A program made the position numbers and the translations under genes. The notes under the pieces were generated by a model that worked only from the letters and a program-made list of their open reading frames with translations, was not told where the DNA came from and made no database searches. From a virus: a stretch of DNA of 64,000 nt. Location: positions 29,561 to 93,560 of IMG/VR virus record IMGVR_UViG_3300005336_000001; one strand, given 5' to 3'. Shown in pieces: positions 39,600 through 56,140 of this stretch (position 1 is its first letter; the number at the start of each line of letters is the position of its first letter).

Positions 39600-39699
39600 T
39601 TGTGAGCATACCGATACAGGAAGGTCCTGCTCACAACCCTCCTGTTGAAGCGTAATGCTTCTCACTGAGGCTGATTAAAGCCTCAGGACAGAAACATTA
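39600..39699 (-). promoter_or_regulatory. ABC RNA element (copy 1) with extra hairpin
   Basis: Arm A AATGTTTCT pairs nine bases with arm B AGAAGCATT around SL1 GAGGCT-TTAATC-AGCCTC; arm C GCTTC pairs with B alternatively. AACAGGAGGG follows, but here a second hairpin (TTGTGAGCA/TGCTCACAA, nine bp) stands between it and the start, whose own site is AAAGGAAAAG. Confidence 0.65.
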
Positions 39700-39813
39700 T
39701 CTGATCTGCTGATATAGAAGGATGTTTCCAATTGTGATTCCAATAAAGATGTCAAATAAGGCAGCAATCATGAACCACAACATGATTTGCAATGCTCGTT
39801 TATCATTACTCAT
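39697..39813 (-). CDS. Small membrane protein
   Basis: 38 residues from MSNDKRALQ. One hydrophobic helix, IMLWFMIAALFDIFIGITIG. Its start overlaps the stop of the zinc protein gene, and its stop TAA opens arm A of the ABC element (TAATGTTTCT). Confidence 0.6.
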   Translation of the reverse strand: MSNDKRALQIMLWFMIAALFDIFIGITIGNILLYQQIR

Positions 39814-40030
39814 AGATAGACCCTTTCTGCCCCGGCTCATTGGAGCCTGTGCACGCAAGATTGTGATTAGTTGCTTTGGGGCAACGTTTGTTCCCGCAGT
39901 TGCGACACACCACCATGTGAACGGCAAGCTCGTTGCGCTCTTTGATACATTTGTGACAACCACATGCACCATTTGTGAGGGAAGCAAATGTACGTTCTTG
40001 CTTTTGCTGCATTTTCTTTAGACAGTCCAA
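39806..40030 (-). CDS. Zinc-binding small phage protein
   Basis: 74 residues from TTG 40030, five bases after AGGAGG. ACGCHKCIKERNELAVHMVV, CRNCGNKRCPKATNHNLAC give two or more Cys/His pairs of a type widespread in phages. Function unknown. Confidence 0.7.
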   Translation of the reverse strand: MDCLKKMQQKQERTFASLTNGACGCHKCIKERNELAVHMVVCRNCGNKRCPKATNHNLACTGSNEPGQKGSIYE

Positions 40031-40096
40031 GGCAACCTCCTATTAGGATTAATACTTTTGTGGTAGTTGAGAGTTCTCCAAAAGGAGGACCCCATT

Positions 40097-40393
40097 ATGT
40101 GGGATTGGTTCCAACGGAAGCGACGAGGGCACATCCTTCGCCGCATCGAACGAAAGGTGAATTGGCTCATGTCCAGTTTTGATGACCTTGCGGCAGCGCA
40201 AGCAGATACGCTTACCAAAGTGGCGGCAGTGAAGACTGACGTCGAAACTTTGCTTGCCCAGATCAAAAACATTCCGCCTGCTGGCTTAACGCCAGAGCAA
40301 CAGGCAGCGTTGGATCAGGCTGTGACCACTGCACAGAGCATCAATACTGCGCTCTCTGCGGTAGACACGGAGGTTCATCCTCCAGCGGCCTAA
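40097..40393 (+). CDS. Lone + strand coiled protein
   Basis: 98 residues from ATG with AAAAGGAGGACCCCATT before it. Basic N-terminus (MWDWFQRKRRGHILRRIERK) then an Ala-rich helical region with a PPAGLTPEQQAALDQAV motif. Such small proteins occur beside phage structural genes. It lies divergent to 40030 with 66 bases between. The terminator hairpin follows it. Confidence 0.7.
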   Translation: MWDWFQRKRRGHILRRIERKVNWLMSSFDDLAAAQADTLTKVAAVKTDVETLLAQIKNIPPAGLTPEQQAALDQAVTTAQSINTALSAVDTEVHPPAA

Positions 40394-40403
40394 TGCACAA
40401 AAA

Positions 40404-40448
40404 TGGCCACTGAGGAAACAGGAGGAGAATCCCAAACCTCAGTGGCCA
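40404..40448 (-). terminator. Terminator whose loop is complementary to the phage ribosome site
   Basis: Perfect 12-bp stem GGCCACTGAGG(T)/..., 21-base loop, then ATTTTTG on the - strand, so a Rho-independent terminator for the 55-40.7 kb transcript direction. The loop reads ATTCTCCTCCTGTTT on the - strand, the exact complement of AAACAGGAGGAGAAT. On the + strand it shows AACAGGAGGAG itself, in the 3' end of the 40097 gene's transcript. It is thus either a coincidence, an antisense to, or a decoy for, the common ribosome site. Confidence 0.75.
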
Positions 40449-40673
40449 CCTTCTGCTGCACTTATAATGGTGAAAGGACCGAACCCATCATAAATGCGCG
40501 AACCGACGCCTTGGTAGGTTTCACTGTGAAGTCAAACCCGGAGGGCCAACAGTGACCACAGAACCTACCCTTGATTTATTCACCCGTTGACGTCGCGCGG
40601 CTGTAACTGATCTCACCGTCACTGCGGCCTCGGGTCCAAACTATGCGTAAACTTTTGACACCGCAACAGGAAA
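40449..40673 (-). other. 225-base 3' region between the 40674 gene and the terminator
   Basis: No gene found. Contains small inverted repeats (GGTTTGACTTCACAGTGAAACC). Likely a long 3' untranslated region or RNA ending in the anti-ribosome-site loop. Confidence 0.4.
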
Positions 40674-40880
40674 TCAAAAGTCTTTGGATTTGAACGCTCT
40701 TGATGCGGCCTTTTCAGCCAGTTCCTCATATGAATAGGGCCCAATCAATTGGCCCACTGGTTCATCATCTTCATCAATGAACTGGTAGTAATATCCAAGC
40801 ATTTGGTCCCCGTCTTCATCAAAGAAAGGCATTTCAGAGGGGACAAACTCATGGATAAGGGCATTGCATACCGCCATCAT
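40674..40880 (-). CDS. Hypothetical acidic protein
   Basis: 68 residues (Met-Met start, GAAGGAAAC upstream). MPFFDEDGDQMLGYYYQFID and VGQLIGPYSYEELAEKAA; beta-rich then helical. Unknown. Confidence 0.6.
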   Translation of the reverse strand: MMAVCNALIHEFVPSEMPFFDEDGDQMLGYYYQFIDEDDEPVGQLIGPYSYEELAEKAASRAFKSKDF

Positions 40881-40887
40881 GTTTCCT

Positions 40888-41115
40888 TCATTTTACAGCC
40901 TTTACCAAGGCTGACTGTTGGCCGACGACGGCGTATATCAAATACCTCCCACCGCCTACGGCTATTTTAGTTTTGGCAAGCGCCTCAACTTCCGCAAGGG
41001 ATTTACATTCATCCCTCGTATAATGCCCGACACCGTCTTTCTTGACGAGAGTAAAGTAGTCGGCATGTTCACAGAACCAATCGTCCCTTTCTTGATACGT
41101 TTTGAAGTCTGGCAT
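40888..41115 (-). CDS. Hypothetical protein
   Basis: 75 residues, YQERDDWFCEHADYFTLVKK, GGGRYLIYAVVGQQSALV. Compact alpha/beta pattern. Overlaps the upstream GPH-box gene by 47 bases. Confidence 0.6.
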   Translation of the reverse strand: MPDFKTYQERDDWFCEHADYFTLVKKDGVGHYTRDECKSLAEVEALAKTKIAVGGGRYLIYAVVGQQSALVKAVK

Positions 41116-41380
41116 CAGCTTCCCTCCTTTTGATTAACAGTGCTTGATAAATTGCCCAACCATGCGGACCGGCGATTGCTTTGCACTTTGTAAGATGCGG
41201 CTTGAGTAAGTCGATCCATAACCCATACTGACTGTTTATTTCAGGAATTTCACCGCTGAATAGCCAGCATAAGTATGGTTTTCCTCTCGCTCTTCTATAA
41301 TTAGGCACGACGCGACCTTGATCATACCAGTGCTTGAGTGTGCTACAGGCATCTTCAATTATGTCAGTGAATGTTTCCAT
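41069..41380 (-). CDS. GPH-box family protein
   Basis: 103 residues from METFTDIIED. Box CKAIAGPHGWAIYQALLIKR; a 17-residue tail follows. An isolated member away from the arrays. N-terminal phrase ACSTLKHWYDQGRVVPNYRR. Confidence 0.75.
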   Translation of the reverse strand: METFTDIIEDACSTLKHWYDQGRVVPNYRRARGKPYLCWLFSGEIPEINSQYGLWIDLLKPHLTKCKAIAGPHGWAIYQALLIKRREADARLQNVSRKGRLVL

Positions 41381-41407
41381 GTTCAGCTCCTGAAAATTGA
41401 CAAACGA

Positions 41408-41446
41408 AAGCCCCCTCACCAGCATCACTTGGCGAGGGGGCAGATT
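41408..41446 (-). terminator. Terminator hairpin after the H1-like gene
   Basis: GCCCCCTCGCCA/TGGTGAGGGGGC, 12 pairs with one G-U, then TTTCGTTTG on the - strand. It lies between the H1-like gene and the GPH-box gene. Confidence 0.65.
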
Positions 41447-41480
41447 AGTTCAGGTGCTCGGGAGGCTAAACCTAAACTAA

Positions 41481-42011
41481 TTACTTCTTCATCTTCAGGA
41501 AATAACGTGTGACCGAACGTTGGCCTTCACGCTCCTCCTTAACACGCTTGACCTCATGGCCAGCTTCTTCAAGGCCATTGAGGACGTTCAGTTGGACCGA
41601 ACCAACCGCTTCCTTGACCTCTTCAAGAGTAGCACCCGCTTTGGCGGCATAGAGCGCCACAGCTTGAGACTTGGCGCTGCCTTCACGGAAGCCCCATGCG
41701 TCCTTCTTCACTCCCTCGGCCTTTGGCTTGGCAACCTTGGGCTTTTCTGACCCTTTAGCGGCCTTTACCGTGGCCTTGGGTGCGGCCTTGGCCTTGGCCG
41801 CTACCTTGACCGCCTTTGCCACCTTAGGCTTGCCAGCGGCCTTTACAGGCGGTTTAGCCGCCCCATTTGCCTTGACCAGTGCCTTTGCCTTTGCCTTGGC
41901 CTTTGGGGCCGTCTCTTCCATTGCTTCACTCATGTACATAAACTCTGCTTTGTTGTTGGCATCCCGTTTAAGGAAAGTGGGGATGTCAAGGGGTTCAGGC
42001 ACTGTGCCCAT
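41481..42011 (-). CDS. Histone-H1-like protein with WG-x-GS domain
   Basis: 176 residues. Residues ~35-105 are almost only Lys, Ala, Pro and Val, as in H1 tails. The C-terminal ~65 residues (DAWGFREGSAKSQAVALYAA, ATLEEVKEAVGSVQLNVL) are homologous to the end of the 25183 protein. Probably binds DNA by the tail and by a winged-helix-like domain. Confidence 0.75.
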   Translation of the reverse strand: MGTVPEPLDIPTFLKRDANNKAEFMYMSEAMEETAPKAKAKAKALVKANGAAKPPVKAAGKPKVAKAVKVAAKAKAAPKATVKAAKGSEKPKVAKPKAEGVKKDAWGFREGSAKSQAVALYAAKAGATLEEVKEAVGSVQLNVLNGLEEAGHEVKRVKEEREGQRSVTRYFLKMKK

Positions 42012-42115
42012 TACTAGGTTCCCTTTCCTCAGATTACAGAGCTAAAGAACTGGAACCGCTAAGTCAAGCGGGATTCCAATTCATTTAGAGGTTTTTGGTT
42101 TCAAACTATTTTGGA

Positions 42116-42340
42116 TTACTTTACTTCGTTGAGAATTGGCTCACCTTTGGCCAAAATCTCTCGAGCACCCTCAAGTCCGCCCTCTACACCTTCACCACAA
42201 AGCGTGCAATTAGGTTCTGCAATGCCTTGCTCCACTTGATCCTTGAGGCATTCAAAGACCTCAAGCCCATCATCTGTGCCGGGCAAGATATCATTGCATA
42301 TGGGACATTTACGACAATAATTCATGTCTTTTGTTGACAT
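42116..42340 (-). CDS. Zinc-ribbon small protein
   Basis: 74 residues; AACAGGGGGGAG six bases before ATG. CRKCPICND and CTLCGEGVEG give paired CxxC. Unknown role. Confidence 0.7.
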   Translation of the reverse strand: MSTKDMNYCRKCPICNDILPGTDDGLEVFECLKDQVEQGIAEPNCTLCGEGVEGGLEGAREILAKGEPILNEVK

Positions 42341-42343
42341 GTT

Positions 42344-42412
42344 TCTCCCCCCTGTTGAAGTGTAGTGCTTCCCGGAGGGCTGACCTAAGCCAGCCCTCGA
42401 AGCTGCACTCGT
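42344..42412 (-). promoter_or_regulatory. ABC RNA element (copy 2)
   Basis: SL1 GAGGGCTG/CAGCCCTC (eight bp). Arm A GTGC(AGC)TTC pairs with B GAAGCAC with a bulge; C is CTTC. Ribosome site AACAGGGGGGAG. The least regular copy. Confidence 0.55.
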
Positions 42413-42678: not shown

Positions 42679-42683
42679 ACGTT

Positions 42684-42758
42684 CTCTCTCCTGTTTTAAC
42701 ACTGAAGCCTTTAGAGCTTCGTGCTGGGGCTTGAGAAGCCCCAGTGTCGAAGCTCTAA
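42684..42758 (-). promoter_or_regulatory. ABC RNA element (copy 3)
   Basis: A:B is a perfect 11-bp pairing, TTAGAGCTTCG with CGAAGCTCTAA, closing SL1 CTGGGGCTT/AAGCCCCAG. C GGCTTC pairs with B GAAGC. Best A:B example. Confidence 0.75.
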
Positions 42759-43097: not shown

Positions 43098-43101
43098 ATT
43101 T

Positions 43102-43172
43102 TCTCCTCCTGTTGGTTGAAGCGTTAATGCTTCTGACTACGCTGGTTTGATCCAGCGTAGGGTAGAAACATT
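43102..43172 (-). promoter_or_regulatory. ABC RNA element (copy 4)
   Basis: A AATGTTTCT, SL1 CTACGCTGG/CCAGCGTAG, B AGAAGCATT (nine bp with A), C GCTTC. Site AACAGGAGGAG. Confidence 0.75.
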
Positions 43173-43533
43173 ACTCGTCGTCATCAACTTCAGTCAGCTC
43201 GTCCTTGCGGACACGCTTCTTGACATTTAGTGTGGCCGAAAGGTTCAAGAGCTCGAATTTGAGATCGATCAGATCAGTATATTCTCGTGCCCTGTACCAG
43301 ATATTGTGATTGACCTCCTTGCCGGATTTTTTGCTGACAAGGTAGGTTTTGTACCATGACTTGGACTTGGACGGCTCACCTTCCACATCTTTGATTTTTT
43401 CGTATACGTGAACTTCACGTGAGGGGGAAACATCAATCACCCATTTGGGCTTTTCAAGAAATGCTTCAGGCAATGTGAGAGCAAATTTCTCAGCTTCAAC
43501 ACGCTCAGTGACAACGTTGGTAGTTTTTCGCAT
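43171..43533 (-). CDS. Hypothetical protein
   Basis: 120 residues from MRKTTNVVTERVEAEK. Beta-rich middle (WVIDVSPSREVHVYEKI, WYKTYLVSKKSGKEVN) and a helical end. Unknown. Confidence 0.6.
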   Translation of the reverse strand: MRKTTNVVTERVEAEKFALTLPEAFLEKPKWVIDVSPSREVHVYEKIKDVEGEPSKSKSWYKTYLVSKKSGKEVNHNIWYRAREYTDLIDLKFELLNLSATLNVKKRVRKDELTEVDDDE

Positions 43534-43537
43534 ATTC

Positions 43538-43598
43538 TCCTCCTGTTGGAGCACTATTGCTCACCAACACCCCGCGTGCGGGATGCGGCGTGAACATT
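43538..43598 (-). promoter_or_regulatory. ABC RNA element (copy 5)
   Basis: A CTAATGTTCAC pairs ten of eleven with B GTGAGCAATAG; SL1 around ATCCC/GGGGT; C TGCTC with B GAGCA. Arms differ from the AGAAGC class but pair. Confidence 0.7.
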
Positions 43599-44439
43599 AG
43601 GTTACCGTCATAGAACCGGATACTTCCAACTTTGGAAACGGCTCAGGGGATGAGCCCTGATTGCGCCACGTCAAGCTCTTGACGTCCCTTTTATAAAAGG
43701 CGGCATTTGCCGCCTTTATCATCAGGGCAATTGTGACTACCGGATCCTTTTTCCTCGTGTTGTCGCTTGCAAAGTACATGCGCAACCTGAAGAATGGATC
43801 GTTCATGCTGATACCTGCCGGGTTTTCCAAAGTATGTACCATCCGTTCAGCCAATTCAGGGCTGCGGTTGGCCAAAATATAATAGAAAAACCCAACAATG
43901 GAGGGGTTTGCCAAACCCCTCAAACGGCTGACACGTTCAATCGCTCGTTCAACACCGGGGTTATTGTCGTACATCAATTCGATGTCTGAATTTTCAATCC
44001 GGTTTTGCGGTGAACGATAGTTCTCAATTGTTCCACGCTGCCATCGTATCAGCCACTGGAAAGCTGCTGACATGTAGCTTCGGTAACGCCCCGCACCTTT
44101 CAATGCAAGGATGTCAGAGCCGGAACGTGCTTTACGTAGAGTATCAATGGTGGCAAATGCGTCCGCTTCAATTCCCTCAACAATGAGGGTTTCAACAGGC
44201 ACATTTGCTTCCACGATGGCCCACAACCTGTGTTGTCCATCCAACACGTCTTTCTTCACTGAGAACTTGATAGTGTCCCCATTGAAACGCCATTTCCCTG
44301 CAATGATCTGTGCAGCAATTCGCTTGACGTGTTGCTCGTTCAACGGCCTGTTGTGGGTATTGTATTCAAGATACTGCATGGCCATCTCAGGCGTCAGAAG
44401 TATCTTTCTTGGATTGCCGTTGGTGGGAGACCCACTCAT
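43597..44439 (-). CDS. ParB-like N-terminal-domain protein
   Basis: 280 residues. Early IKFSVKKDVLDGQHRLWAIV with DGQHR is the ParB/Srx-like catalytic or CTP-binding motif. The rest is helical. With the upstream HTH protein it may form a ParB-type pair for partition, transcription or host takeover. Start ATG 44439 with GGAG; overlaps the HTH gene by 53 bases. Confidence 0.75.
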   Translation of the reverse strand: MSGSPTNGNPRKILLTPEMAMQYLEYNTHNRPLNEQHVKRIAAQIIAGKWRFNGDTIKFSVKKDVLDGQHRLWAIVEANVPVETLIVEGIEADAFATIDTLRKARSGSDILALKGAGRYRSYMSAAFQWLIRWQRGTIENYRSPQNRIENSDIELMYDNNPGVERAIERVSRLRGLANPSIVGFFYYILANRSPELAERMVHTLENPAGISMNDPFFRLRMYFASDNTRKKDPVVTIALMIKAANAAFYKRDVKSLTWRNQGSSPEPFPKLEVSGSMTVT

Positions 44440-44905: not shown

Positions 44906-44908
44906 GTT

Positions 44909-44974
44909 TTCTCCTCCTGTTTTGAGCGTAGATGCTCACCACTGCCGCTCGTAAGCGGCAGGACGTGAACAACT
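44909..44974 (-). promoter_or_regulatory. ABC RNA element (copy 6)
   Basis: A TAGTTGTTCAC pairs ten of eleven with B GTGAGCATCTA; SL1 TGCCGCT-TACG-AGCGGCA (UACG loop); C GCTC with GAGC. Confidence 0.75.
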
Positions 44975-45149
44975 ATTTTTCAACATAGCTTTTCAAGCTA
45001 AGTCGAATTTCATCAGCACTTTTTTCGTCACTTTGATTTGGGAACACATAATCATATGATCCCATTTCAAAGATTCGATTTAAAAGTTCAAGATGACGTT
45101 TGGCTTGAAGCGGGGTAAATTCAAGCCACAGAGGCGGCTTATTTCCCAT
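44973..45149 (-). CDS. Small hypothetical protein
   Basis: 58 residues from MGNKPPLWLEFTPLQAK; TAATG overlap with the metallopeptidase gene. Helical, YDYVFPNQSDEKSADEI. Unknown; stop TAG lies in arm A. Confidence 0.6.
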   Translation of the reverse strand: MGNKPPLWLEFTPLQAKRHLELLNRIFEMGSYDYVFPNQSDEKSADEIRLSLKSYVEK

Positions 45150-46333
45150 TAACCCGTCTCTGACACATGGATGCTGGTGCCAAACGGGGCACGTGCAACC
45201 AGTTGGTCGAAATATTGTGACGGACCGTAGACTGCCCACATGACTGGGCAACCGGGGTCTTCACCATATTCGTTAACCTGAAGGTCAGTCAGGTAGATGA
45301 CGCAACTGGCATCAGGATGATTTTTGCTGAGCCAATTAAACGAGTCACGGAAATCAGTTCCGCCACCCGTGTATTGACCAATGGTAACCATATCGCCCTG
45401 CACGAATTCATCAACGTGTTGAACCCGTGTGTCGGCGTAGGCCACCACGATCATGTCAGCGGTGCCCTGATCCAACGCACCACCGACTTCACTGAGCATT
45501 TCAAGCGCCATCTTGTGACTGACGGAACCTGAAACATCAATAAAGAACACCAACTTGTTGAGCCTGTCTGACACATAGCCCGGCATCAGAACACCCAATG
45601 CCGCCGAGCGCCTGTTGGGGCGAGCCCAACTGGTAGCCTTTGACATTGATTGATCGATGAAGCGCATGGTCAGATCACGCCATGACACCTTTGGTTTGCT
45701 CAATTCCGCGATCAAGTTCCTGAGTGATCCCGGTATTTGGCCAGCATTTTGTCCTGCGGCAACCTGTACCGCAGCGCGCACTGACATTTCCCATTCATGC
45801 TTAGTTGCTTCCTTCTTATCAGCATTGCCGGGAGCATCCATCACACCACCACACCCACCGGGATCGGTGCCGTCACCAAAGCTATCCACGTACACTTTTT
45901 CAAAAGTGTCATAGATTTCTTCAGTGGTCATTCCCTTGTACTTCTTGTCAATGCAACACTTGAAGTTTTTTCCACTAATCTCACGATCATGGATTAACTT
46001 GAAGCCTGCCTCCTGAAGATCAAGGTTGATGACGAAATCACCTGCAATGTTCCACGCTTTGGGATCGCGCGTACCACGGCGAGTGAAATGCTGGAAGCAA
46101 CAGTGCATGACTTCGTGCGCTACCAAGAACTCCAACTCACGATCGTCCAATTGATTGACGAAATTGGGATTGTAGAACATGGACACGCCGTCAACACCGG
46201 CGGTTGGCAGATCATAACTTTCCACCAACCGCAATTGTAGTGCAAGGAAGCCAAAGAAACCGTTGCTCACCAGCAAACTTGTGCGGGCGGACACCATTTT
46301 CTCTAAAGCTCCTTTGTCCTTTATCTTAGCCAT
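45149..46333 (-). CDS. vWA-like metallopeptidase (DUF2201-type)
   Basis: 394 residues. N-terminal zinc motif HEVMHCCFQHFTRR (HExxH) and C-terminal vWA-like half with VFFIDVSGSVS, GGGTDFRDSF and CVIYLTDLQVNEYG. DUF2201 proteins work with MoxR ATPases; a MoxR gene is at 47593. Ribosome site AACAGGAGGAG. Confidence 0.85.
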   Translation of the reverse strand: MAKIKDKGALEKMVSARTSLLVSNGFFGFLALQLRLVESYDLPTAGVDGVSMFYNPNFVNQLDDRELEFLVAHEVMHCCFQHFTRRGTRDPKAWNIAGDFVINLDLQEAGFKLIHDREISGKNFKCCIDKKYKGMTTEEIYDTFEKVYVDSFGDGTDPGGCGGVMDAPGNADKKEATKHEWEMSVRAAVQVAAGQNAGQIPGSLRNLIAELSKPKVSWRDLTMRFIDQSMSKATSWARPNRRSAALGVLMPGYVSDRLNKLVFFIDVSGSVSHKMALEMLSEVGGALDQGTADMIVVAYADTRVQHVDEFVQGDMVTIGQYTGGGTDFRDSFNWLSKNHPDASCVIYLTDLQVNEYGEDPGCPVMWAVYGPSQYFDQLVARAPFGTSIHVSETG

Positions 46334-46336
46334 ATT

Positions 46337-46468
46337 TTCTCCTCCTGTTTTTGAAGCATAACACTTCACTAAAAAGATGAGCCCCCACACAGAGGTAGGT
46401 CAAACTTGTATGGGGGCGATGCCTTACGTGTTTCCACGTCTTACAGGCACATCTTTTTAAAGCAGAGT
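46337..46468 (-). promoter_or_regulatory. Long variant RNA leader/terminator
   Basis: Larger than other copies: outer stem TAAAAAGATG/CATCTTTTTA (ten bp), inner GCCCCCA/TGGGGGC and a small CGTG/CACG. A T-run (CTTTTT) after the GC stem suggests a terminator. GAAG/CTTC and AACAGGAGGAG follow as in the other copies. Confidence 0.6.
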
Positions 46469-46818
46469 TAGCGTAGTTCGAAACTCACACGTTCATCCGT
46501 GTCATTACGGATGAATTGCTCATAGATAGAAGGTTTTTCCTCTTTGAGCTTCTTTTGATCAAGCCGATCAATGGGGATCAATTTCAGGATAGCCTTGAAC
46601 AAAGTTCCCTTCAATTCACCCTCATCGTGCTTAAGTTTGTCCTTGATTTCGTTCTTGATGGACTTGTCAAGCACCTCGCATGTTTTGGCCACAGGTTTAA
46701 GGCGTGCGGCCAAATCGATCTTGTCTTTGAGTGTCATGGTGTCAAGTTTCTTGGAAAAGCCTTCCAAGATATCGGCCATGTCAGCAAGGTCCATTTCTAC
46801 TGCTGGTTTCAAGTGCAT
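46468..46818 (-). CDS. Conserved helical phage protein
   Basis: 116 residues. Helical Lys/Leu-rich, DLAARLKPVAKTCEVLDKSI, ending LDQKKLKEEKPSIYEQFI. Common in large phages as I recall; function unknown. Confidence 0.65.
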   Translation of the reverse strand: MHLKPAVEMDLADMADILEGFSKKLDTMTLKDKIDLAARLKPVAKTCEVLDKSIKNEIKDKLKHDEGELKGTLFKAILKLIPIDRLDQKKLKEEKPSIYEQFIRNDTDERVSFELR

Positions 46819-46821
46819 TCT

Positions 46822-46884
46822 CCTCCTGTTGAAGTTTGATACTTCCTGCTGCGGTGAGATTAGTCACCGCAGAGTGGAAACATC
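46822..46884 (-). promoter_or_regulatory. ABC RNA element (copy 8)
   Basis: A TGATGTTTCC pairs ten of ten (two G-U) with B GGAAGTATCA; SL1 CTGCGGTGA-CTAATC-TCACCGCAG; C ACTTC with B GAAGT. B changed to GAAGT and C to ACTTC together. Confidence 0.78.
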
Positions 46885-47518
46885 ATTTGGTCAAGTAAAG
46901 GAATTTAGTGCCGGGGGACTTCAGTTTGATCAAGATTTTGAGCATGTCATTGATCAGACGCTTTAGCCCTTTCAAATCCTTGACGTGAGCCATGTAGTCG
47001 CATTTAACGTCAATGGACTCATTAAGTTTGACATTACAGTAAAACTCATTGCCAGCCTCAAGGTTTTTGAGAGCTTCTTCAAGCTCCTTACGCTTGTCGG
47101 CAATGCCAGCAAGATATGTCTTGCGACGCTGGCTGGACCATTTGCTGAAGATGTATTCACGCATGGCGTCATTCCATTGTTCAGTAGTGATGGCTTTCGC
47201 CGAACCCAATTGGGCAATGGCAATCTTACGCAAGCCACGACTACGCTCCATCTTGGTCTTTTCAGAGTTCTGGCAACCATCCTCGTCATTCCAATAACAG
47301 GAATCATTGAGGCCAATCTTCATGTCACGGATTGCGCGCAATACACACTTTGGGTTATCCGTGTGAGGTTCACCCATGGCATATGCCACGGCTGCTTCTA
47401 CACACATCTGGCCCGGCTGAGGGCTGCCCACACCATGGGATAACCCTGCATCGACAACCTTCAGCACTTTGAGAACAAGTGCTTTGGTTATGGGTGTGTT
47501 TTTGACTTTCTTAGCCAT
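46883..47518 (-). CDS. Hypothetical protein
   Basis: 211 residues from MAKKVKNTPITKA. PQPGQMCVEAAVAYAMGEPH and CVLRAIRDMKIGLNDSCYW; then helices. A frequent companion of MoxR genes in large phages; unknown. Confidence 0.6.
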   Translation of the reverse strand: MAKKVKNTPITKALVLKVLKVVDAGLSHGVGSPQPGQMCVEAAVAYAMGEPHTDNPKCVLRAIRDMKIGLNDSCYWNDEDGCQNSEKTKMERSRGLRKIAIAQLGSAKAITTEQWNDAMREYIFSKWSSQRRKTYLAGIADKRKELEEALKNLEAGNEFYCNVKLNESIDVKCDYMAHVKDLKGLKRLINDMLKILIKLKSPGTKFLYLTK

Positions 47519-47521
47519 AGA

Positions 47522-47594
47522 AATCTCCTCCTGTTGACGAAGCATTAGTGCTTCTCACATGCCCGGCTGTGAACCGGGCATGGACAGAAGGACT
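47522..47594 (-). promoter_or_regulatory. ABC RNA element (copy 9)
   Basis: A TTAGTCCTTCT pairs ten of eleven with B AGAAGCACTAA; SL1 ATGCCCGG/CCGGGCAT; C TGCTTC with B GAAGCA (six bp). Confidence 0.78.
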
Positions 47595-48618
47595 AAATGT
47601 GCAGCGACTTGTTGTTCTTGGCCCACGTCACAAACGTGGGGGTATCGCACAACGTGCTGTCACGCTTGGTAGCGTCCAGCACAACCACGGTGCTGAAGTC
47701 CGCACCAAAACCATCCCGGTTGATGTATTTGTAGATGGCCGGGAAAGTGTCCTTGGTCGTGCTGCGTGCTAACAACGCACTGAGGGCGTACCGGCCAGCC
47801 GGTGCATCGGGGATATCAGCTTTCATCGGGTTGGACAAGATGTCCTCCAAGTCCGGCAACTCAGCCGTCTTGAAGTAGGTCTCAACCTCCAACGCCGCGC
47901 CCTCACCGACAATAGCTGCCACCAGTTTGAAACGCATGCCCTCCGGTGCGTCGAACACCTTCGAAGCACTTGCCCAAGAACGCGGTGACGGGAAGGCCAA
48001 CAAGTCAGCTCCTTCCATGCTGTGGATGAGGTTGGGACGGTACTTGATGAAACCGATCAACATCGGATCGATACCATTCAAGTTCGCCCAATGCCCCCAG
48101 CATTCAGCATCAGCCCGGATGTGAACATGTGCGAAGCGGTTTGCCAAAGCTGATGACAGCGATTGCGCCGCAGCACGATCTTCCCTCCGGTTGCCAGCGG
48201 CTACCGGCCACCACCCATCGGGTAACTTGTAATCGCCGATCTGACGATCCAAGATCACCCGGTAGATGCATGACTGCAACTGACGCGGTGCGTCACTGAG
48301 TTCGTCAAACGCGATAATGCCCTTCGGGCCATCACGGTTCACGTCAGGCCAGAAGGCAGCCCGCAACCATACTGCCAGTTTTTTCTCGAGGTCAGGCACC
48401 GGGATGCCTGTGAGATCTTCAGGCAACATGGTGCCCACACGGACGTCGATAAAGCCGGACTCATCCTCAGCAGCAAGCTGTTTCATGATGTCCGACTTGC
48501 CGATGCCCGGCGCACTGTGGAAGTATGTGGGAATGTTTTTTGACCTGAAGATGCGGGCAATATCCTTTGCCGTCTCAATGGTCTCAGTGCGTACCCCACT
48601 TGTTACGTTTTCACTCAT
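47593..48618 (-). CDS. MoxR-family AAA+ ATPase
   Basis: 341 residues from MSENVTSGVRTETIE. Walker A HSAPGIGKSD, Walker B IIAFDELSDAP, sensor AAGNRREDRAAAQSL then ALANRFAHVHI. With the vWA/metallopeptidase it forms a chaperone-like module known in phages and bacteria. Confidence 0.88.
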   Translation of the reverse strand: MSENVTSGVRTETIETAKDIARIFRSKNIPTYFHSAPGIGKSDIMKQLAAEDESGFIDVRVGTMLPEDLTGIPVPDLEKKLAVWLRAAFWPDVNRDGPKGIIAFDELSDAPRQLQSCIYRVILDRQIGDYKLPDGWWPVAAGNRREDRAAAQSLSSALANRFAHVHIRADAECWGHWANLNGIDPMLIGFIKYRPNLIHSMEGADLLAFPSPRSWASASKVFDAPEGMRFKLVAAIVGEGAALEVETYFKTAELPDLEDILSNPMKADIPDAPAGRYALSALLARSTTKDTFPAIYKYINRDGFGADFSTVVVLDATKRDSTLCDTPTFVTWAKNNKSLHI

Positions 48619-48623
48619 AGTTC

Positions 48624-48700
48624 TCTCCTCCTGTTTAGGAATGAAGCATTGTCGCTTCTTACTACTGTCACCTTTATGGCGACAGTAGGGTAGAAACGTC
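48624..48700 (-). promoter_or_regulatory. ABC RNA element (copy 10)
   Basis: A TGACGTTTCT with B AGAAGCGACA (nine of ten), SL1 CTACTGTC/GACAGTAG, C GCTTC. Confidence 0.72.
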
Positions 48701-49034
48701 ACTTCATCGCAAGTTCGCTTTCACGGATCAGATCAGATCTGATCACGTCTGGGAGTGCCAACCGTGCACGTTCCATTGCCGCTCCGTAAGTACGGGGATG
48801 GTTCATGGCAATGTCGTTCACGACCTGTGGGATGACAAAATCATCATCATCGATGGTGGCTTCGGTCAAGCCAACCAACACTTTCCGTGCTTTTGGGAAA
48901 GCAGCTTTCAACGATTGAGCCAGCAAACATGAACGAGGATTGCCCGCATCATAGATGCCGTCGTAAGGTTTTGCCTGAAGCCATTTGATCAGGCTCTCCA
49001 CGTCCTGACGTGTGGCCGGTTTTTCATATACCAT
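48699..49034 (-). CDS. Hypothetical protein
   Basis: 111 residues. DVESLIKWLQAKPYDGIYDA and LLAQSLKAAFPKARKVLVG. Helical. Unknown. Confidence 0.62.
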   Translation of the reverse strand: MVYEKPATRQDVESLIKWLQAKPYDGIYDAGNPRSCLLAQSLKAAFPKARKVLVGLTEATIDDDDFVIPQVVNDIAMNHPRTYGAAMERARLALPDVIRSDLIRESELAMK

Positions 49035-49038
49035 AGTT

Positions 49039-49105
49039 CTCCTCCTGTTAGATGCGGTAATGCATCTTTGAGCGCACCCCGTAGGATGCGCCCCGTAGAT
49101 GAACT
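49039..49105 (-). promoter_or_regulatory. ABC RNA element (copy 11)
   Basis: B is GATGC and C GCATC, while A has CATCT: TAGTTCATCT pairs nine of ten with AGATGCATTA. SL1 GCGCATCC-TACG-GGGTGCGC. All three arms changed together from the GAAGC type. Confidence 0.78.
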
Positions 49106-49220
49106 ACTTCAGTTGTATTCTGATGATGTATGGTAAGCGAACACCCGCCACCATCCTGCGAACGCCATCGTGTGGCACGTAGACGTATTTGCCAAAACAA
49201 AGCCAAACACTGTATGTCAT
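49104..49220 (-). CDS. 38-residue protein
   Basis: ATG 49220 with AAGGGC upstream; MTYSVWLCFGKYVYVPHDGV then RRMVAGVRLPY. Fills the gap exactly between the DUF3150-like gene and an ABC element; stop TAG opens arm A. Confidence 0.6.
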   Translation of the reverse strand: MTYSVWLCFGKYVYVPHDGVRRMVAGVRLPYIIRIQLK

Positions 49221-49233
49221 GACGATGCCCTTA

Positions 49234-50109
49234 TCACTTCATGTAGCTTTGGACTTTCTTCAGGATCTTGTCGGCCTTGCTGATAGTTTCAGCACGCACC
49301 TTGTTATCCGCACGCAGAATTTCAGGTGAGTGCTCAACCAGATCAGAGCGTAACTGCTTTGCCAATTCAGTGATGCGTGGATCATCAGTGACATTCAGAA
49401 CTGGAATGAGGTTGACCAGTTCATCAATGTTGTACACCAGCGAACTGTGGATGGTGCCTTCAGCCTTGTTGCCATCCTTGGATGGCACGTAAGCCTTAAG
49501 CTTTTCAGTCATGTGCCGAACGAGCCCCTCAACCCGTCCAAAGACGTCCTTCATGGCATTTTCCAGACGCTCATTGGTGCGCCGTTCAATGTCCTTGATG
49601 ATGGCCTTGGTGGATTCATCGCTGAGTTTGGCACGGAAATCCTGTGCCTGTGGCAGCGGCTTGACCTCGACGTCGAAGTCAAACTTGGCCTCAAGCACAC
49701 TCACGTCAGGGTAATCGTCCTGATTGAACATGTCACCCAGCCGCGTTTTGCCTTCCTTGATTGCATTGGGCAAATCATCAAGGAAAGCTTTCACTTCCTT
49801 CTCAATGGCAATGCGGCAATCACGCATCTTTTTGGTGTACTCGATGTACCCCGTGTTGCTGAGGATGCGCGTACCATCATCCTCCCACGGCAACGTGTAC
49901 AGCCGATGCACCTTGCGGGCATTGCTGTGCGCCGTGGAAACGCCACTGAAGAAACTGGCCTTGACCAACCGCTTGTTATATCGGCCTGCTTCTTTCTCAG
50001 CCTTGAAGTCAGCATTGACGGAATCAGTGACCTCTCGGTCCACCATCATGCCTGACCATGACTTGATATGGAGCGATGAAAGCATCGCCCTTTCAGCTAA
50101 TTTGCTCAT
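49234..50109 (-). CDS. DUF3150-like protein, MoxR-module partner
   Basis: 291 residues from MSKLAERAMLSSLHIKSWSG. SWSGMMVDREVT and the long helical remainder resemble DUF3150 proteins that accompany MoxR/vWA genes. C-terminal helix with LEHSPEILRADNK. Function unknown. Confidence 0.62.
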   Translation of the reverse strand: MSKLAERAMLSSLHIKSWSGMMVDREVTDSVNADFKAEKEAGRYNKRLVKASFFSGVSTAHSNARKVHRLYTLPWEDDGTRILSNTGYIEYTKKMRDCRIAIEKEVKAFLDDLPNAIKEGKTRLGDMFNQDDYPDVSVLEAKFDFDVEVKPLPQAQDFRAKLSDESTKAIIKDIERRTNERLENAMKDVFGRVEGLVRHMTEKLKAYVPSKDGNKAEGTIHSSLVYNIDELVNLIPVLNVTDDPRITELAKQLRSDLVEHSPEILRADNKVRAETISKADKILKKVQSYMK

Positions 50110-50114
50110 GGTTT

Positions 50115-50180
50115 TTCTCCTCCTGTTTGAAGCACAAATGCTTCCTACTATGGCCCGCAGGCCATAGAGTGGAAACATTC
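50115..50180 (-). promoter_or_regulatory. ABC RNA element (copy 12)
   Basis: A AATGTTTCC with B GGAAGCATT (nine), SL1 CTATGGCC/GGCCATAG, C TGCTTC. Confidence 0.78.
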
Positions 50181-50712: not shown

Positions 50713-50718
50713 AATTTT

Positions 50719-50792
50719 TACTCCTCCTGTTTGTGGGGACGAAGCGTAATGCTTCTCACTGCGGCCACATGAGCCGCAGGACAGAAACATTA
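50719..50792 (-). promoter_or_regulatory. ABC RNA element (copy 13)
   Basis: A AATGTTTCT with B AGAAGCATT, SL1 CTGCGGC/GCCGCAG, C GCTTC. Stop TAA of the 38-residue gene opens arm A. Confidence 0.78.
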
Positions 50793-50906: not shown

Positions 50907-50918
50907 GTTCTCCTCCTG

Positions 50919-51452
50919 TTAAGTTAGGCTGAAAATGTCAGCCAAGACTTGTGTGATAATTGGCAAACTGGCCTCATCGCCCGTAATTTTCCATTGATTA
51001 CGGGACACCATTTGAAGTTCGTACATGGTGTTGATATCGCCCGGCTTCCCCGTGTAGTAACCAAACTCCCTTAGGTTGATCACGAACTTTTTGTCATACC
51101 GTCTACGGAAGTGTTTCATCATCTTTTTTGAATTAAGATGGATGACTTGATAGTCCTCGTTTTCAGCAACTCTAGTAAGAAGTGCATGGCCGAAAATGCT
51201 GATGGTTTGGCGGATGAAGCGCTCACGCTTCAATGCCCTACTGGTAGCTTCAGGGTCGGCAAAGTCCCCAGATGATTTGACATGCTCAAGTTGAAACTTG
51301 AGGCAATCAGCAGCTTCTTGGCAGGACAAGAAAGGTAGCAGCCCTCTATGGAAGTCAGGTCGGCCACTGTAGCTTCGCACACACATGACAATATAATCCT
51401 GCCGTGTGGTGTTTAACTTGTCCAAATAAGTAGCGAGTGTTTTTACACTCAT
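50919..51452 (-). CDS. Hypothetical protein
   Basis: 177 residues. LSCQEAADCLKFQLEHVKSS, RFIRQTISIFGHALLTRVAE and a C-terminal MYELQMVSRNQWKI. Unknown. Its stop is immediately followed by the next ribosome site. Confidence 0.6.
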   Translation of the reverse strand: MSVKTLATYLDKLNTTRQDYIVMCVRSYSGRPDFHRGLLPFLSCQEAADCLKFQLEHVKSSGDFADPEATSRALKRERFIRQTISIFGHALLTRVAENEDYQVIHLNSKKMMKHFRRRYDKKFVINLREFGYYTGKPGDINTMYELQMVSRNQWKITGDEASLPIITQVLADIFSLT

Positions 51453-51455
51453 TTT

Positions 51456-51518
51456 CTCCTCCTGTTTTGTAGATGTTCACCACTGCCCCTCCACGTGGAG
51501 AGGCAGGACGTCAACATC
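51456..51518 (-). promoter_or_regulatory. ABC RNA element (copy 14)
   Basis: A GATGTT pairs with B AACATC (six), SL1 TGCCTCTCC/GGAGGGGCA (nine bp). C is not evident. Confidence 0.65.
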
Positions 51519-52002
51519 AGATATTATCGGCAGCCGCCACAAATTCACGGATTTGTTTGGCAACTGCAAGTTCACCTTCAGCACCAACAGGAAGTTTCCT
51601 GTTGTCGTATTTCTCTTCATATCCTTCACCGGTGAAGAGATGGTAGACAGCCCACCTGTCAATTTCAAAGAAATCACCGACGGCCTCAAAGTTATCCAAG
51701 CCGTTGAAGTAAGGCGTGAGATAGTACGCGCCTTCCGCAGACTTGAGTTTGTAGGTCAACCCTTCATCCTTGAAGATGCCACTGATGGCAGCAAAACCCA
51801 CAGCACACGCGACGGTCCCACAATCAACCGGGACAGTCTCAGTTTCAGATTTGAACAAATATGGAATATTCGTGTCATAGTCTGCGTCGGCATTGTAGCC
51901 ATCCTTGGCTGCCCACGTGCCGATATCAAATTTGATACCAGTGGGATTGGCTGCGTCCATTTCAAGGGCAGCGGCCAACCTCAACAAAAGATCTTTACGC
52001 AT
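51517..52002 (-). CDS. Conserved hypothetical phage protein
   Basis: 161 residues from MRKDLLLRLAAALEM. VPVDCGTVACAVGFAAIS is a motif seen in several phage proteins; FEIDRWAVYHLFTGEGYEE later. Unknown. Confidence 0.62.
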   Translation of the reverse strand: MRKDLLLRLAAALEMDAANPTGIKFDIGTWAAKDGYNADADYDTNIPYLFKSETETVPVDCGTVACAVGFAAISGIFKDEGLTYKLKSAEGAYYLTPYFNGLDNFEAVGDFFEIDRWAVYHLFTGEGYEEKYDNRKLPVGAEGELAVAKQIREFVAAADNI

Positions 52003-52009
52003 AATCATC

Positions 52010-52081
52010 TCCTCCTGTTTGACACTCACCATGAGTGTTCAGTCCTGCTCACCCAATTAAGGATGAGCAGAGTGAAGACTC
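52010..52081 (-). promoter_or_regulatory. ABC RNA element (copy 15)
   Basis: A GAGTCTTCA with B TGAACACTC (eight of nine), SL1 GCTCATCC/GGGTGAGC, C GAGTGT with B ACACTC (six). Arms unlike other copies. Confidence 0.78.
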
Positions 52082-52295: not shown

Positions 52296-52301
52296 GATAT
52301 T

Positions 52302-52372
52302 CTCCTCCTGTTGAAGCTTAATTGCTTCTTTGGACGCTGATATTTTGCCCAGCGCCCCGTAGAAACAATTTC
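52302..52372 (-). promoter_or_regulatory. ABC RNA element (copy 16)
   Basis: A AATTGTTTCT with B AGAAGCAATT (ten bp). SL1 GGCGCTG/CAGCGTC, C GCTTC. Confidence 0.76.
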
Positions 52373-53128: not shown

Positions 53129-53131
53129 TTT

Positions 53132-53195
53132 CTCCTCCTATTACAGTCATAATGACTGACCACTACCGCTCGTAAGCGGCAGGACGTCAGCAATC
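53132..53195 (-). promoter_or_regulatory. ABC RNA element (copy 17)
   Basis: A TGATTGCTGAC with B GTCAGTCATTA (ten of eleven, two G-U), SL1 TGCCGCT-TACG-AGCGGTA, C TGACTG with B CAGTCA (six). The B/C sequence is wholly different from GAAGC/GCTTC. Confidence 0.78.
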
Positions 53196-53388
53196 ATGCT
53201 TCGCTGGGATCGAGCGCAAACAAAAGGTTCGTAAGAAATGCAATGTGCATTTCATAGTGCGGATGCCACTCGTGAACCGCCCAAATGCCACCAGCCGCAC
53301 AGATGAGAACTATGCGGTAATGACGCTTGCGTACCTTCACCTTCTCAATGTGAGGCAGGTGAAGTTTGGACCAACGTACACTCTTCAC
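53194..53388 (-). CDS. Small membrane-associated protein
   Basis: 64 residues from GTG with AAAGGAGGTGGACC. Basic start, then a hydrophobic segment (YRIVLICAAGGIWAVHEW). Unknown. Confidence 0.6.
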   Translation of the reverse strand: MKSVRWSKLHLPHIEKVKVRKRHYRIVLICAAGGIWAVHEWHPHYEMHIAFLTNLLFALDPSEA

Positions 53389-53401
53389 GGTCCACCTCCT
53401 T

Positions 53402-53551
53402 TCATTGGCTGGCAGCTCGCTCGTAAGTGCCAGCGCGAGTGTTTTCAGTGAAATTCATTTGGGAGGAGATGTCCCACCAAACGATCATGAAAAAAGCCGC
53501 CCCAAGCAGAGCGGCTTTAAACAGATGCTGAACCTTTTCGCGGTTGTCCAT
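53402..53551 (-). CDS. Small membrane protein
   Basis: 49 residues from MDNREKVQHLFK. Helix AALLGAAFFMIVWWDIS. Ribosome site AACAGGAGGAGAA. Unknown. Confidence 0.62.
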   Translation of the reverse strand: MDNREKVQHLFKAALLGAAFFMIVWWDISSQMNFTENTRAGTYERAASQ

Positions 53552-53555
53552 TTCT

Positions 53556-53624
53556 CCTCCTGTTTCATTGAAGCGTGATTGCTTCTCACTGCCCCACGTA
53601 TGGGGCAGGACAGAAACAGTCATT
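53556..53624 (-). promoter_or_regulatory. ABC RNA element (copy 18)
   Basis: A GACTGTTTCT with B AGAAGCAATC (nine of ten), SL1 TGCCCCA-TACG-TGGGGCA, C GCTTC. Confidence 0.76.
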
Positions 53625-53973
53625 ATTTGCCGCGCCCGTAGTAGAGCTTGGCCAATTCAGCATCCCGCTCTTCAGCGGGGATGAGCACCAACCGCGTCAG
53701 CACCGTGCCCCAGTCTTTGCCCCAAATCTTTTGGGCGGCCAGATGGTCAAAGATCAACGTGTCAGCACTGGGCACCTCTTCCATGACGGTCACATTGAAA
53801 CCGCCTTGGTTTTCTTGGTACTCATAACAGATGTGATGACCAATCAACACATCCTGCACGCCATACACTTCACGGATGATGTCCTTGAAGAGTTGACGGC
53901 TGATGGCATTCCGGTCGTTTTCCCACACGCCTTCAATTTTCACGCCACCGGGCGTGAAGTCCTGTTTGTTCAT
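53623..53973 (-). CDS. Conserved phage protein, paralogue of 6301-6606
   Basis: 116 residues from MNKQDFTPGGVKIEG. EVPSADTLIFDHLAAQKIWG shared with the 6301 gene. The copy here has its own RNA element and strong ribosome site; the other is coupled to GcrA. Unknown role. Confidence 0.75.
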   Translation of the reverse strand: MNKQDFTPGGVKIEGVWENDRNAISRQLFKDIIREVYGVQDVLIGHHICYEYQENQGGFNVTVMEEVPSADTLIFDHLAAQKIWGKDWGTVLTRLVLIPAEERDAELAKLYYGRGK

Positions 53974-53978
53974 TTCTC

Positions 53979-54048
53979 TCCTCCTGTTCAGATTAGAAGC
54001 ACAGATGCTTCTCACATGGCTGATTGCTCAGCCATGGACAGAAACATC
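53979..54048 (-). promoter_or_regulatory. ABC RNA element (copy 19)
   Basis: A GATGTTTCT with B AGAAGCATC (nine), SL1 CATGGCTGA-GCAA-TCAGCCATG, C TGCTTC. Confidence 0.78.
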
Positions 54049-54232
54049 AGTGAAGGATGCCAACCACAATGGCCAGCACGATGACCACCGAGCCAATGAT
54101 GCCAAGCATGGCAATCCAGTTGACCCGGTAAGGCTGCTCAGTGAACACATCGACCGCTTCATCAAGCTCGTCCCTGCGGTCAAGCTTGTCGTCACGGTTG
54201 GGGTCCGGCATCATGTATTCAGAACCAATCAT
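54047..54232 (-). CDS. Small membrane protein
   Basis: 61 residues. Acidic/basic N-terminus (DPNRDDKLDRRDELDEAV), C-terminal helix WIAMLGIIGSVVIVLAIVVG. Tail-anchored topology. Confidence 0.65.
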   Translation of the reverse strand: MIGSEYMMPDPNRDDKLDRRDELDEAVDVFTEQPYRVNWIAMLGIIGSVVIVLAIVVGILH

Positions 54233-54237
54233 ATTTT

Positions 54238-54306
54238 CTCCTCCTGTTATGAAGCTTAAATGCTTCTTGCAGGGCGCTTATTCATCGCCCTGTGTAGAAA
54301 CATTCT
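54238..54306 (-). promoter_or_regulatory. ABC RNA element (copy 20), overlapping a coding end
   Basis: A AATGTTTCT at 54296-54304 lies inside the GPH-box gene, SL1 CAGGGCG/CGCCCTG spans its stop, B AGAAGCATT at 54259-54267, C GCTTC. The protein's last residues (KNVSTQGDE) are encoded by the element. Confidence 0.78.
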
Positions 54307-54574
54307 TGTAGCCATGCTTTGCTGCGATGGCTTTCAAGATTGTTAGAACGTGTGGGCCTCTTGCTTGCGTAAGTGATATCCTTTTTGATATTAGATCCTC
54401 TTTACACCTGCGCCAGCTATCCAACCCATCACCCCATGGTTCATCTGGAAAACCAAAGGTTTGTGCGACTAGCAACAAAGCATCGTGCAAACTCGCCGTC
54501 TGCCCATTGGCACGTATATGTCTGAGGGCATAAATTACCCCCAACATGTAATCATCTTTTTTATCTATGGCCAT
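54278..54574 (-). CDS. GPH-box family protein
   Basis: 98 residues. Box TQARGPHVLTILKAIAAKHG, then a ten-residue tail encoded by the RNA element. N-terminal ~75 residues unique (TFGFPDEPWGDGLDSW). Overlaps the next upstream gene by ten bases. Confidence 0.78.
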   Translation of the reverse strand: MAIDKKDDYMLGVIYALRHIRANGQTASLHDALLLVAQTFGFPDEPWGDGLDSWRRCKEDLISKRISLTQARGPHVLTILKAIAAKHGYKNVSTQGDE

Positions 54575-54900
54575 TTGGGATACTTGCTCAAGTCAACCCC
54601 ACGGATGGTTGCCAGTGCGTACACCAGTATTTTTCCATGAGGGCCAGCCAATGCTTGGAGCATCAGTGCTCGTTTTGCATCACGAGGCTTTTGACCATGT
54701 GATGCAGCAGTGTGGAAGTGTTGAGATGCTGAATTGCGCCCCTTGAGATCCTTTACTTTGTATCCCAACAAGGCACGCAACACGGATGGACTTCCACGCT
54801 TGTCACCCATCCGTCTTGGCATATTGCCCAAGGCGGCATGCCAAATCTCAGTCCAATCAGCACGTTCAGGGATGTGACGTCTTGGATTACCTCTAGGCAT
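54565..54900 (-). CDS. GPH-box family protein
   Basis: 111 residues from MPRGNPRRHIPERADW. Box LQALAGPHGKILVYALATIR. Basic N-terminus. Second member of the small 54 kb cluster. Confidence 0.75.
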   Translation of the reverse strand: MPRGNPRRHIPERADWTEIWHAALGNMPRRMGDKRGSPSVLRALLGYKVKDLKGRNSASQHFHTAASHGQKPRDAKRALMLQALAGPHGKILVYALATIRGVDLSKYPKWP

Positions 54901-54911
54901 CGCCTTAACCG

Positions 54912-55118
54912 TCAGTGATGCGTGTGATTGGGATCGTCCACGTCCACGCCACAAGCACCGCATATCATCGGCATCTTGTTGACCAACGGGAACTGCCCTA
55001 CTGGCTTATCACACGTGGAGCAATGAATGCCCAACGTAGATGAATCCATCAGCCCAACCTCAAGGCTGTCCTTGCGACCTTCCTGCAAGCAAGACTTGCA
55101 GTGAAAATACATCTTCAT
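54912..55118 (-). CDS. Zinc-ribbon protein with two CxxC pairs
   Basis: 68 residues from MKMYFHCKSCLQEG. CxxC at CKSC, CSTC, CGAC and a HTHH end. ATGA-type overlap with the upstream gene. Unknown. Confidence 0.7.
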   Translation of the reverse strand: MKMYFHCKSCLQEGRKDSLEVGLMDSSTLGIHCSTCDKPVGQFPLVNKMPMICGACGVDVDDPNHTHH

Positions 55119-55306
55119 TTGTTGCTCCACTTCTCGGTGATGGCATCAAATGCGGTGATGAGGTCTTCAGCATCATTGTCCTCGTCAATGCCGTACTCAA
55201 CAGCATAGCCGTCAAGGTTGTTCAACACGACAAGCATCTGATCCTTACGAGTGTCAGCATTTGCTTTTTCAAACAAAGCTAACCATTCATCTTTGCTTAT
55301 ACTCAT
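55115..55306 (-). CDS. Small helical acidic protein
   Basis: 63 residues. ISKDEWLALFEKANADTRK and GIDEDNDAEDLITAFDAITE. Unknown. Confidence 0.62.
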   Translation of the reverse strand: MSISKDEWLALFEKANADTRKDQMLVVLNNLDGYAVEYGIDEDNDAEDLITAFDAITEKWSNK

Positions 55307-55310
55307 GTTT

Positions 55311-55374
55311 TCTCCTCCTGTTTGAACATAGTGTTCACCACGGAAGCTTGTTAAAGCTTCCGGACGTCAACACT
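55311..55374 (-). promoter_or_regulatory. ABC RNA element (copy 21)
   Basis: A TAGTGTT with B AACACTA (seven), SL1 CGGAAGCTT/AAGCTTCCG (nine), C TGTTC with B GAACA. Confidence 0.78.
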
Positions 55375-55588
55375 AAGATTTAGCATTTTTCATTTGTTCT
55401 TCAGACAACAGATGAAAACACTTGTCTCCCTCAAACGTGGACAACCAAATTTCACCAGCACCGGGCTCTTCAGAAAGAACATCTGGTTGATATTGCCCCA
55501 GATACTTTCCATCTTTGTCATATTTGTAACGGGCGGAACCATCATCCCGTTCAAACCCAGTTTTAGTCTTAATGATAAATTCACGCAT
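55373..55588 (-). CDS. Hypothetical protein
   Basis: 71 residues. FERDDGSARYKYDKDGKYLG and EIWLSTFEGDKCFHLL. Beta-rich. Unknown. Confidence 0.6.
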   Translation of the reverse strand: MREFIIKTKTGFERDDGSARYKYDKDGKYLGQYQPDVLSEEPGAGEIWLSTFEGDKCFHLLSEEQMKNAKS

Positions 55589-55594
55589 GACCTT

Positions 55595-55660
55595 TATCCT
55601 CCTGTTGAAGCAAATGCTTCTGCCTGCACTGAGATTAGTCAGTGCAGGATAGAAACATTA
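55595..55660 (-). promoter_or_regulatory. ABC RNA element (copy 22)
   Basis: A AATGTTTCT with B AGAAGCATT, SL1 CCTGCACTGA/TCAGTGCAGG (ten), C GCTTC. Site AACAGGAGGA. Confidence 0.78.
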
Positions 55661-55855: not shown

Positions 55856-55885
55856 GATCTTGATCCTCCTGTTTGATATCAATGG

Positions 55886-56081: not shown

Positions 56082-56140
56082 ATTATTGTAATTCTTATTC
56101 CTGCAACTTTGCAGGCTTCTAAGATTGAATGATGATAGCA

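Follow-up and report, generated by a model that had tools for sequence, protein, structure and literature searches.

A repeated intercistronic RNA element with two mutually exclusive pairings in unrelated phages, possibly an RNase III-type processing site

The window analysed here is a stretch of 64,000 nt (positions 29,561 to 93,560 of the 93.6-kb virus record IMGVR_UViG_3300005336_000001; all coordinates below are window positions). It carries 21 full copies of an intergenic RNA element, all on the minus strand at 39,634-55,660, plus three reduced sites, in agreement with an earlier note on this sequence that counted about 22 copies between the genes at 39.6-55.7 kb. The element consists, in order, of an arm A, a 3-nt loop strand, a hairpin (SL1), a 2-nt loop strand, an arm B, a short linker, an arm C and a spacer, followed by the Shine-Dalgarno sequence (SD) and the start codon. 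Comparisons of the copies indicate that the pairings A:B and B:C are mutually exclusive and that both structures are under selection. Rfam 15 gave no relevant match in 39.0-56.5 kb, even at E up to 1, and a search of open-licence papers did not find a description of the element, which appears to be so far undescribed. With a probability of about one half, the element is an intercistronic mRNA-processing site of the RNase III type, in which the cut would free B for a 5' hairpin with C. The broader statement, that a widespread element moved between unrelated phages acts as a strand-exchange switch triggered by cleavage or by the ribosome and gives per-gene messages with a 5' hairpin, has about even odds.

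The pairing of A with B around SL1, proposed in the earlier note, is borne out by the alignments. Among 19 window copies, 94.3% of the A:B and SL1 cells are paired vs. 64.2% after shuffling, with 101 double-change cells vs. 31.6, and sliding this alignment as a control lowered the paired cells to 38-51%. In a set of 139 copies drawn from 24 sources, paired cells amount to 95.0% vs. 64.7% and the double-change cells to 734 vs. 202, although this larger alignment, unlike that of the 19 window copies, was fitted to the structure. The covariation on which the proposal depended is thus present. G.U pairs far exceed A.C combinations in A:B (95:21) and in SL1 (66:1), an asymmetry showing that folding takes place in the sense RNA. 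Individual copies have fold z-scores of -3.5 to -6.1, the latter value belonging to the type example (copy 4, 43101..43173). As the earlier note had described, A opens at the stop codon of the upstream gene, which lies inside the arm at an offset of 0 or -1 in 62 of 89 copies from the window and its relatives. The stop, SD and start context is constant among the copies.

A:B has 8-11 bp in most copies and SL1 has 8-10 bp. Among 133 copies, the upper stem is 8-10 bp long in 121 and carries a tetraloop in 86, and the whole helix measures 17-20 bp in most, corresponding to about two turns. The internal loop is 3x2 in 114 of these copies, in which the first 5' and the last 3' loop bases are coupled (G/G in 61, A/A in 42, A/C combinations in 8). 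This coupling across the loop marks it as a structured motif with two isoforms. The recurrence of an internal loop given earlier as GUCC/GUG stands, with the sequence more exactly GUC on the 5' side opposite UG on the 3' side and a C-G closing pair; a second class, ACN/[UCA]A, has to be added.

The B:C pairing lies outside every covariance model used. Of 137 copies, 119 have a perfect 5-nt C downstream of B, compared with 8.3% for the tails of copies having another B core and 3.6% for shuffled tails, supporting the alternative pairing with a GCTTC arm put forward in the earlier note. Copies with cores other than GAAGC have a perfect C in 22 of 30 cases (9.6% in the control), and the variants over all copies include GAACA/TGTTC, GATGC/GCATC, TGAGC/GCTCA and CAGTCA/TGACTG. 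The loop of the B:C hairpin is 5-6 nt in 106 of the 119. The five B bases shared by the two pairings form 99 G.U among 575 pairs with A vs. 3 among 595 with C. Thus, C is the better partner for B once A is removed, and the asymmetry (G.U with A, Watson-Crick with C) suggests a tuned strand exchange.

The predicted A:B probability is 0.84 in the intact leader, whereas that of B:C increases from 0.13 in the intact leader to 0.78 in the 5'-truncated product without A. The two states differ by only ~3.8 kcal/mol. Rebinding of the A strand to the product after a cut is predicted at only ~-6.8 kcal/mol, from which a simple calculation suggests a dissociation constant of ~10 micromolar, far above mRNA concentrations. 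Opening of the SD costs 2.75 kcal/mol and 1.85 kcal/mol when B is freed for C (0.9 less; Wilcoxon p 3e-13). The SD of the window copies is mostly AACAGGAGGAG, which occurs with at most one mismatch at 23 sites vs. 1.06 expected by chance. The copies and the reduced sites are as follows.

39634..39699, minus strand: element copy 1, GUC/UG loop, TAATGTTTCT..AGAAGCATTACGCTTC
42343..42410, minus strand: element copy 2, divergent, bulge in the A arm
42682..42757, minus strand: element copy 3, A:B of 11 bp, TTAGAGCTTCG/CGAAGCTCTAA
43101..43173, minus strand: element copy 4 (type example), A UAAUGUUUCU, loop ACC, SL1, loop UC, B AGAAGCAUUA, C GCUUC, SD AACAGGAGGAG
43535..43599, minus strand: element copy 5, B:C variant GAGCA/TGCTC
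44909..44974, minus strand: element copy 6, B:C variant GAGC/GCTC
46818..46885, minus strand: element copy 7, B:C variant GAAGT/ACTTC
47523..47595, minus strand: element copy 8
48623..48701, minus strand: element copy 9
49037..49106, minus strand: element copy 10, B:C variant AGATGC/GCATCT, loop ACG/AA
50115..50180, minus strand: element copy 11
50719..50792, minus strand: element copy 12
51454..51519, minus strand: element copy 13, A:B and SL1 without a clear C
52007..52081, minus strand: element copy 14, B:C variant ACACTCA/TGAGTGT
52300..52370, minus strand: element copy 15
53130..53195, minus strand: element copy 16, B:C variant CAGTCA/TGACTG
53552..53621, minus strand: element copy 17
53976..54049, minus strand: element copy 18
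54236..54305, minus strand: element copy 19
55310..55375, minus strand: element copy 20, B:C variant GAACA/TGTTC
55594..55660, minus strand: element copy 21
46337..46378, minus strand: reduced site, B:C-type hairpin and SD without A:B (E 0.003)
50908..50943, minus strand: reduced site, hairpin GGCTGA..TCAGCC and SD only (E 0.0026)
55861..55891, minus strand: first gene of the array, small hairpin GATA..TATC and SD without A or SL1, very weak match (E 0.87)

To find relatives, IMG/VR was scanned for the pattern and the matches were screened with covariance models. The model search of other phages envisaged in the earlier note was positive, with the element in records G001-G007 and 19 further ones, giving at least 28 records including the window and a prophage. 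This prophage, of Bradyrhizobium elkanii WSM2783 (L162/L279), carries five copies. Matches occur in 9 of 149 Bradyrhizobium genomes, some of them weak, and the weak ones (L340 and L342-L345, E about 2e-4 to 8e-4) were left out of the membership. Three of these weak matches (L342, L344 and L343) have a divergent sequence with the same apparent anatomy (A:B, SL1 and B:C, e.g. GATGCAATTGTGCATC) before small genes, and that of L342 adjoins an integrase-like gene. In the records read whole, the copies sit in one cluster per record. The SD varies by lineage (AACAGGAGGAG, AGAGGGAAA, GAAAGAGAGC or GGAGCAA), whereas A, the loop, SL1, B and C are kept.

The terminases of one group of these phages (G000, G001, G004 and G005) are 75-79% identical. 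A second group (G003, G006, G011 and G012) is only about 25% identical to the first and has mainly a module of MoxR, VWA and 314-aa proteins in common with it. This module is present in the compared element-bearing lineages except for the Bradyrhizobium prophage. At the sensitivity of blastp, no phage protein turned out to be common to all element-bearing lineages, which makes a host factor the probable agent; a phage-encoded RNase III (PF14622) is absent from the seven records searched. N4-like phages have MoxR and VWA-type genes without the element, which is therefore not tied to that module. The element is absent from the searched 50 kb of N4 and 29 kb of DFL12phi1, from the known phages with the nearest terminases to four records, and from the records with related ParB-like or distant MoxR genes (L098, L099, L103 and L104). 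Hairpin promoters of the N4 (Schitoviridae) kind would go with a giant virion RNA polymerase encoded by the phage, but no open reading frame of that size was seen in the records read, which were read in pieces, so that one cut by a boundary could escape. Two sets of matches were rejected as members: the Vibrio phage blastn matches have only a CCGCTTACGAGCGG-type hairpin in common and lack the element, and the Drexlerviridae matches share only an SL1-like hairpin and have no match with covariance model R2.

The RNase III-type reading can be laid out as follows. In the intact transcript, as the comparative evidence shows, A with its stop codon pairs with B around SL1, forming a ~20-bp helix with a central, structured 3x2 loop. 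Host RNase III may recognise this two-turn helix and would cleave it within or beside the internal loop, as it does T7 R1.1. A cut on the 3' side of the loop, like that in R1.1, would leave the upstream message ending in SL1. Departure of A from the downstream fragment would then allow B to pair with C, so that the newly formed 5' end would carry a hairpin immediately before the SD. In this way, separate messages would arise for each gene or group of overlapping genes, with a hairpin at the 3' end, a protective one at the 5' end and a somewhat more accessible SD. The B:C state could also come about without cutting, since A would be covered when a ribosome terminates on the stop codon, and both routes may operate. 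Cleavage would explain the retention of B:C despite its incompatibility with A:B, the lower pairing strength of A and the hairpin-only arrangement at the first gene, and also how one host enzyme could serve unrelated phages. The lack of a common phage protein across the lineages also fits a host enzyme.

T7 R1.1, a 60-nt site located between genes 1 and 1.1, has an asymmetric 4/5 loop (PMC6121014), and its cleavage by RNase III matures and protects T7 mRNA (PMC8708148). Like the T7 sites (R0.3, R0.5, R1.1, R1.3, R4.7 etc.), the element is intercistronic in a polycistronic phage message, lies before the ribosome-binding site (RBS) and is repeated along one transcript. Both, with the T7 sites folded, have a lower stem, a central asymmetric internal loop and an upper stem of ~20 bp in total, which in the element form a hairpin of the sense RNA. 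The geometry and the post-cut folding of the T7-like reading in the earlier note are thus supported. However, covariance models R1 and R2 found no sequence relatives in T7, although homology is not required of RNase III substrates. Unlike the T7 sites, the element has a stop codon within the stem and a conserved arm C that would re-pair B after removal of A; it occupies most spaced junctions of one gene block, recurs in many unrelated phages, and its cleavage is what we infer here. We know of no conserved strand-exchange arm in T7-type RNase III sites. Functionally, the element can be classed with the T7-type RNase III sites as a putative member that has such an arm.

Several points weigh against RNase III-type processing. 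RNase III does not select its sites by a strong sequence consensus (PMC8708148), and a match in geometry by itself therefore counts for little; the conservation of GUUUC/GAAGC and of the loop exceeds the known needs of the enzyme. At 3x2, the internal loop falls short of the 4/5 loop of R1.1, the position of the stop codon in A is not demanded by the RNase III model, and some copies lack C (51454) or A:B (46337 and 50908). The stop codon in A would suit the main rival, a cleavage-free coupling switch, in which the terminating ribosome would cover A and melt A:B, B would pair with C and the downstream RBS would open; without upstream translation A:B would re-form, tuning or coupling neighbouring genes. 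The small energy difference between the two states and the cheaper opening of the SD with B free agree with such a switch, which we regard as rather unlikely. The effect on the SD is small, and the length of SL1 and the structured central loop are unaccounted for. Moreover, the real C closes the SD no more than shuffled C (2.75 vs. 2.89, p 0.16), making a designed SD lock unlikely, and anti-SD arms are not enriched above chance. An SD-sequestering attenuator was rejected on this basis, and with it a strong form of the translation switch that the earlier note gave as an alternative, one in which C would sequester the SD while A:B is formed; a weaker, ribosome-driven form is the possible one.

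The conservation of the loop and the inner helix far beyond pairing needs, with the coupled G.G (61/114) and A.A (42/114), would suit a site for another RNA-binding protein of the host or the phage on the loop and the GAAGC helix, serving operon translation control or mRNA protection. This is the more doubtful explanation, as the upkeep of B:C is unexplained and, with no protein common to all lineages at the sensitivity used, the protein would have to be the host's. Pure mRNA-stability insulators are improbable. SL1, which is stable with tetraloops, would guard 3' ends from exonucleases and B:C would guard 5' ends cut by RNase E or otherwise, without dedicated cleavage, and 5'-terminal hairpins do stabilise E. 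coli mRNA (general knowledge and titles cited in PMC3997798). However, A:B, its covariation and the exact loop would then be superfluous. The repetition in the array and the GC-rich inverted repeat of SL1 might also suggest DNA-level repeats or transcription signals (terminators, promoters or recombination sites), a very remote prospect: the excess of G.U over A.C is explained only by sense RNA, this strand asymmetry ruling out a DNA-level main function, and the stop, SD and start context is constant. No U-tract follows SL1, on which ground an intrinsic terminator was rejected, and promoter and terminator matches are at chance level.

Three other systems resemble parts of the element. The lambda cIII mRNA adopts two alternative structures, linked to RNase III, one of which occludes the RBS. 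It shares with the element mutually exclusive structures near the RBS and the RNase III connection. However, cIII is a single site in one gene with an occluded RBS, whereas the SD of the element is not selectively occluded. In erm-type translation attenuators, coverage of arm 1 by a ribosome decides between 1:2 and 2:3 pairing. Exclusive pairing set by coverage of arm 1 is common to both, but the element has no short leader peptide or antibiotic stalling, and the stop codon in its arm 1 belongs to a full gene. The ompA and papA leaders, 5'-terminal hairpins that stabilise E. coli mRNA according to the cited titles, resemble the putative B:C hairpin after a cut in being placed at the very 5' terminus, immediately before the SD. 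Unlike these leaders, the hairpin of the element would form only after removal of the competing arm.

The gene block at 39.6-55.9 kb has all its genes on the minus strand; its spaced junctions mostly have the element and its overlapping gene pairs mostly lack it. No convincing copies were found outside the array in the rest of the 93.6-kb record. The module at 45149-50178 consists of a MoxR-like ATPase, a 314-aa protein and a DUF2201/VWA protein. The ~1.2 kb that directly precede the array's first gene (55900-57150) lack clear minus-strand genes and contain several strong inverted repeats; this region is likely the promoter or leader of the operon. A 12-bp hairpin on the plus strand (40403-40450, GGCCACTGAGG...CCTCAGTGGCC; fold of -33 kcal/mol for 100 nt) carries in its loop the sole plus-strand copy of the SD AACAGGAGGAG, and also occurs at L089:688-713. 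A minus-strand tRNA at 25112-25182 has a CTA anticodon (labelled Pyl by ARAGORN) and is possibly an amber suppressor, and the window also has tRNA-Pro and tRNA-Gln. TAG nevertheless serves as the stop in 4 of 19 element-anchored window genes, and no CTA-anticodon tRNA was seen in the related records scanned. The phage has no close relative in the phage collection searched. Its DNA polymerase shares 29-32% identity with the enzymes of Edwardsiella and Vibrio phages of 71-79 kb, and its terminase has an identity of at most 50%, to a Microcystis phage.

Strongly covarying repeated RNA elements are rare in DNA phages. The recurrence of this one across lineages with almost no genes in common points to a host factor, and the copies in the Bradyrhizobium prophage make it experimentally accessible. 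If the element is a processing site, phages outside the T7 group would use host RNase III to produce individually protected mRNAs from one long message; if it is not, a new RNA-recognition system would be implied.

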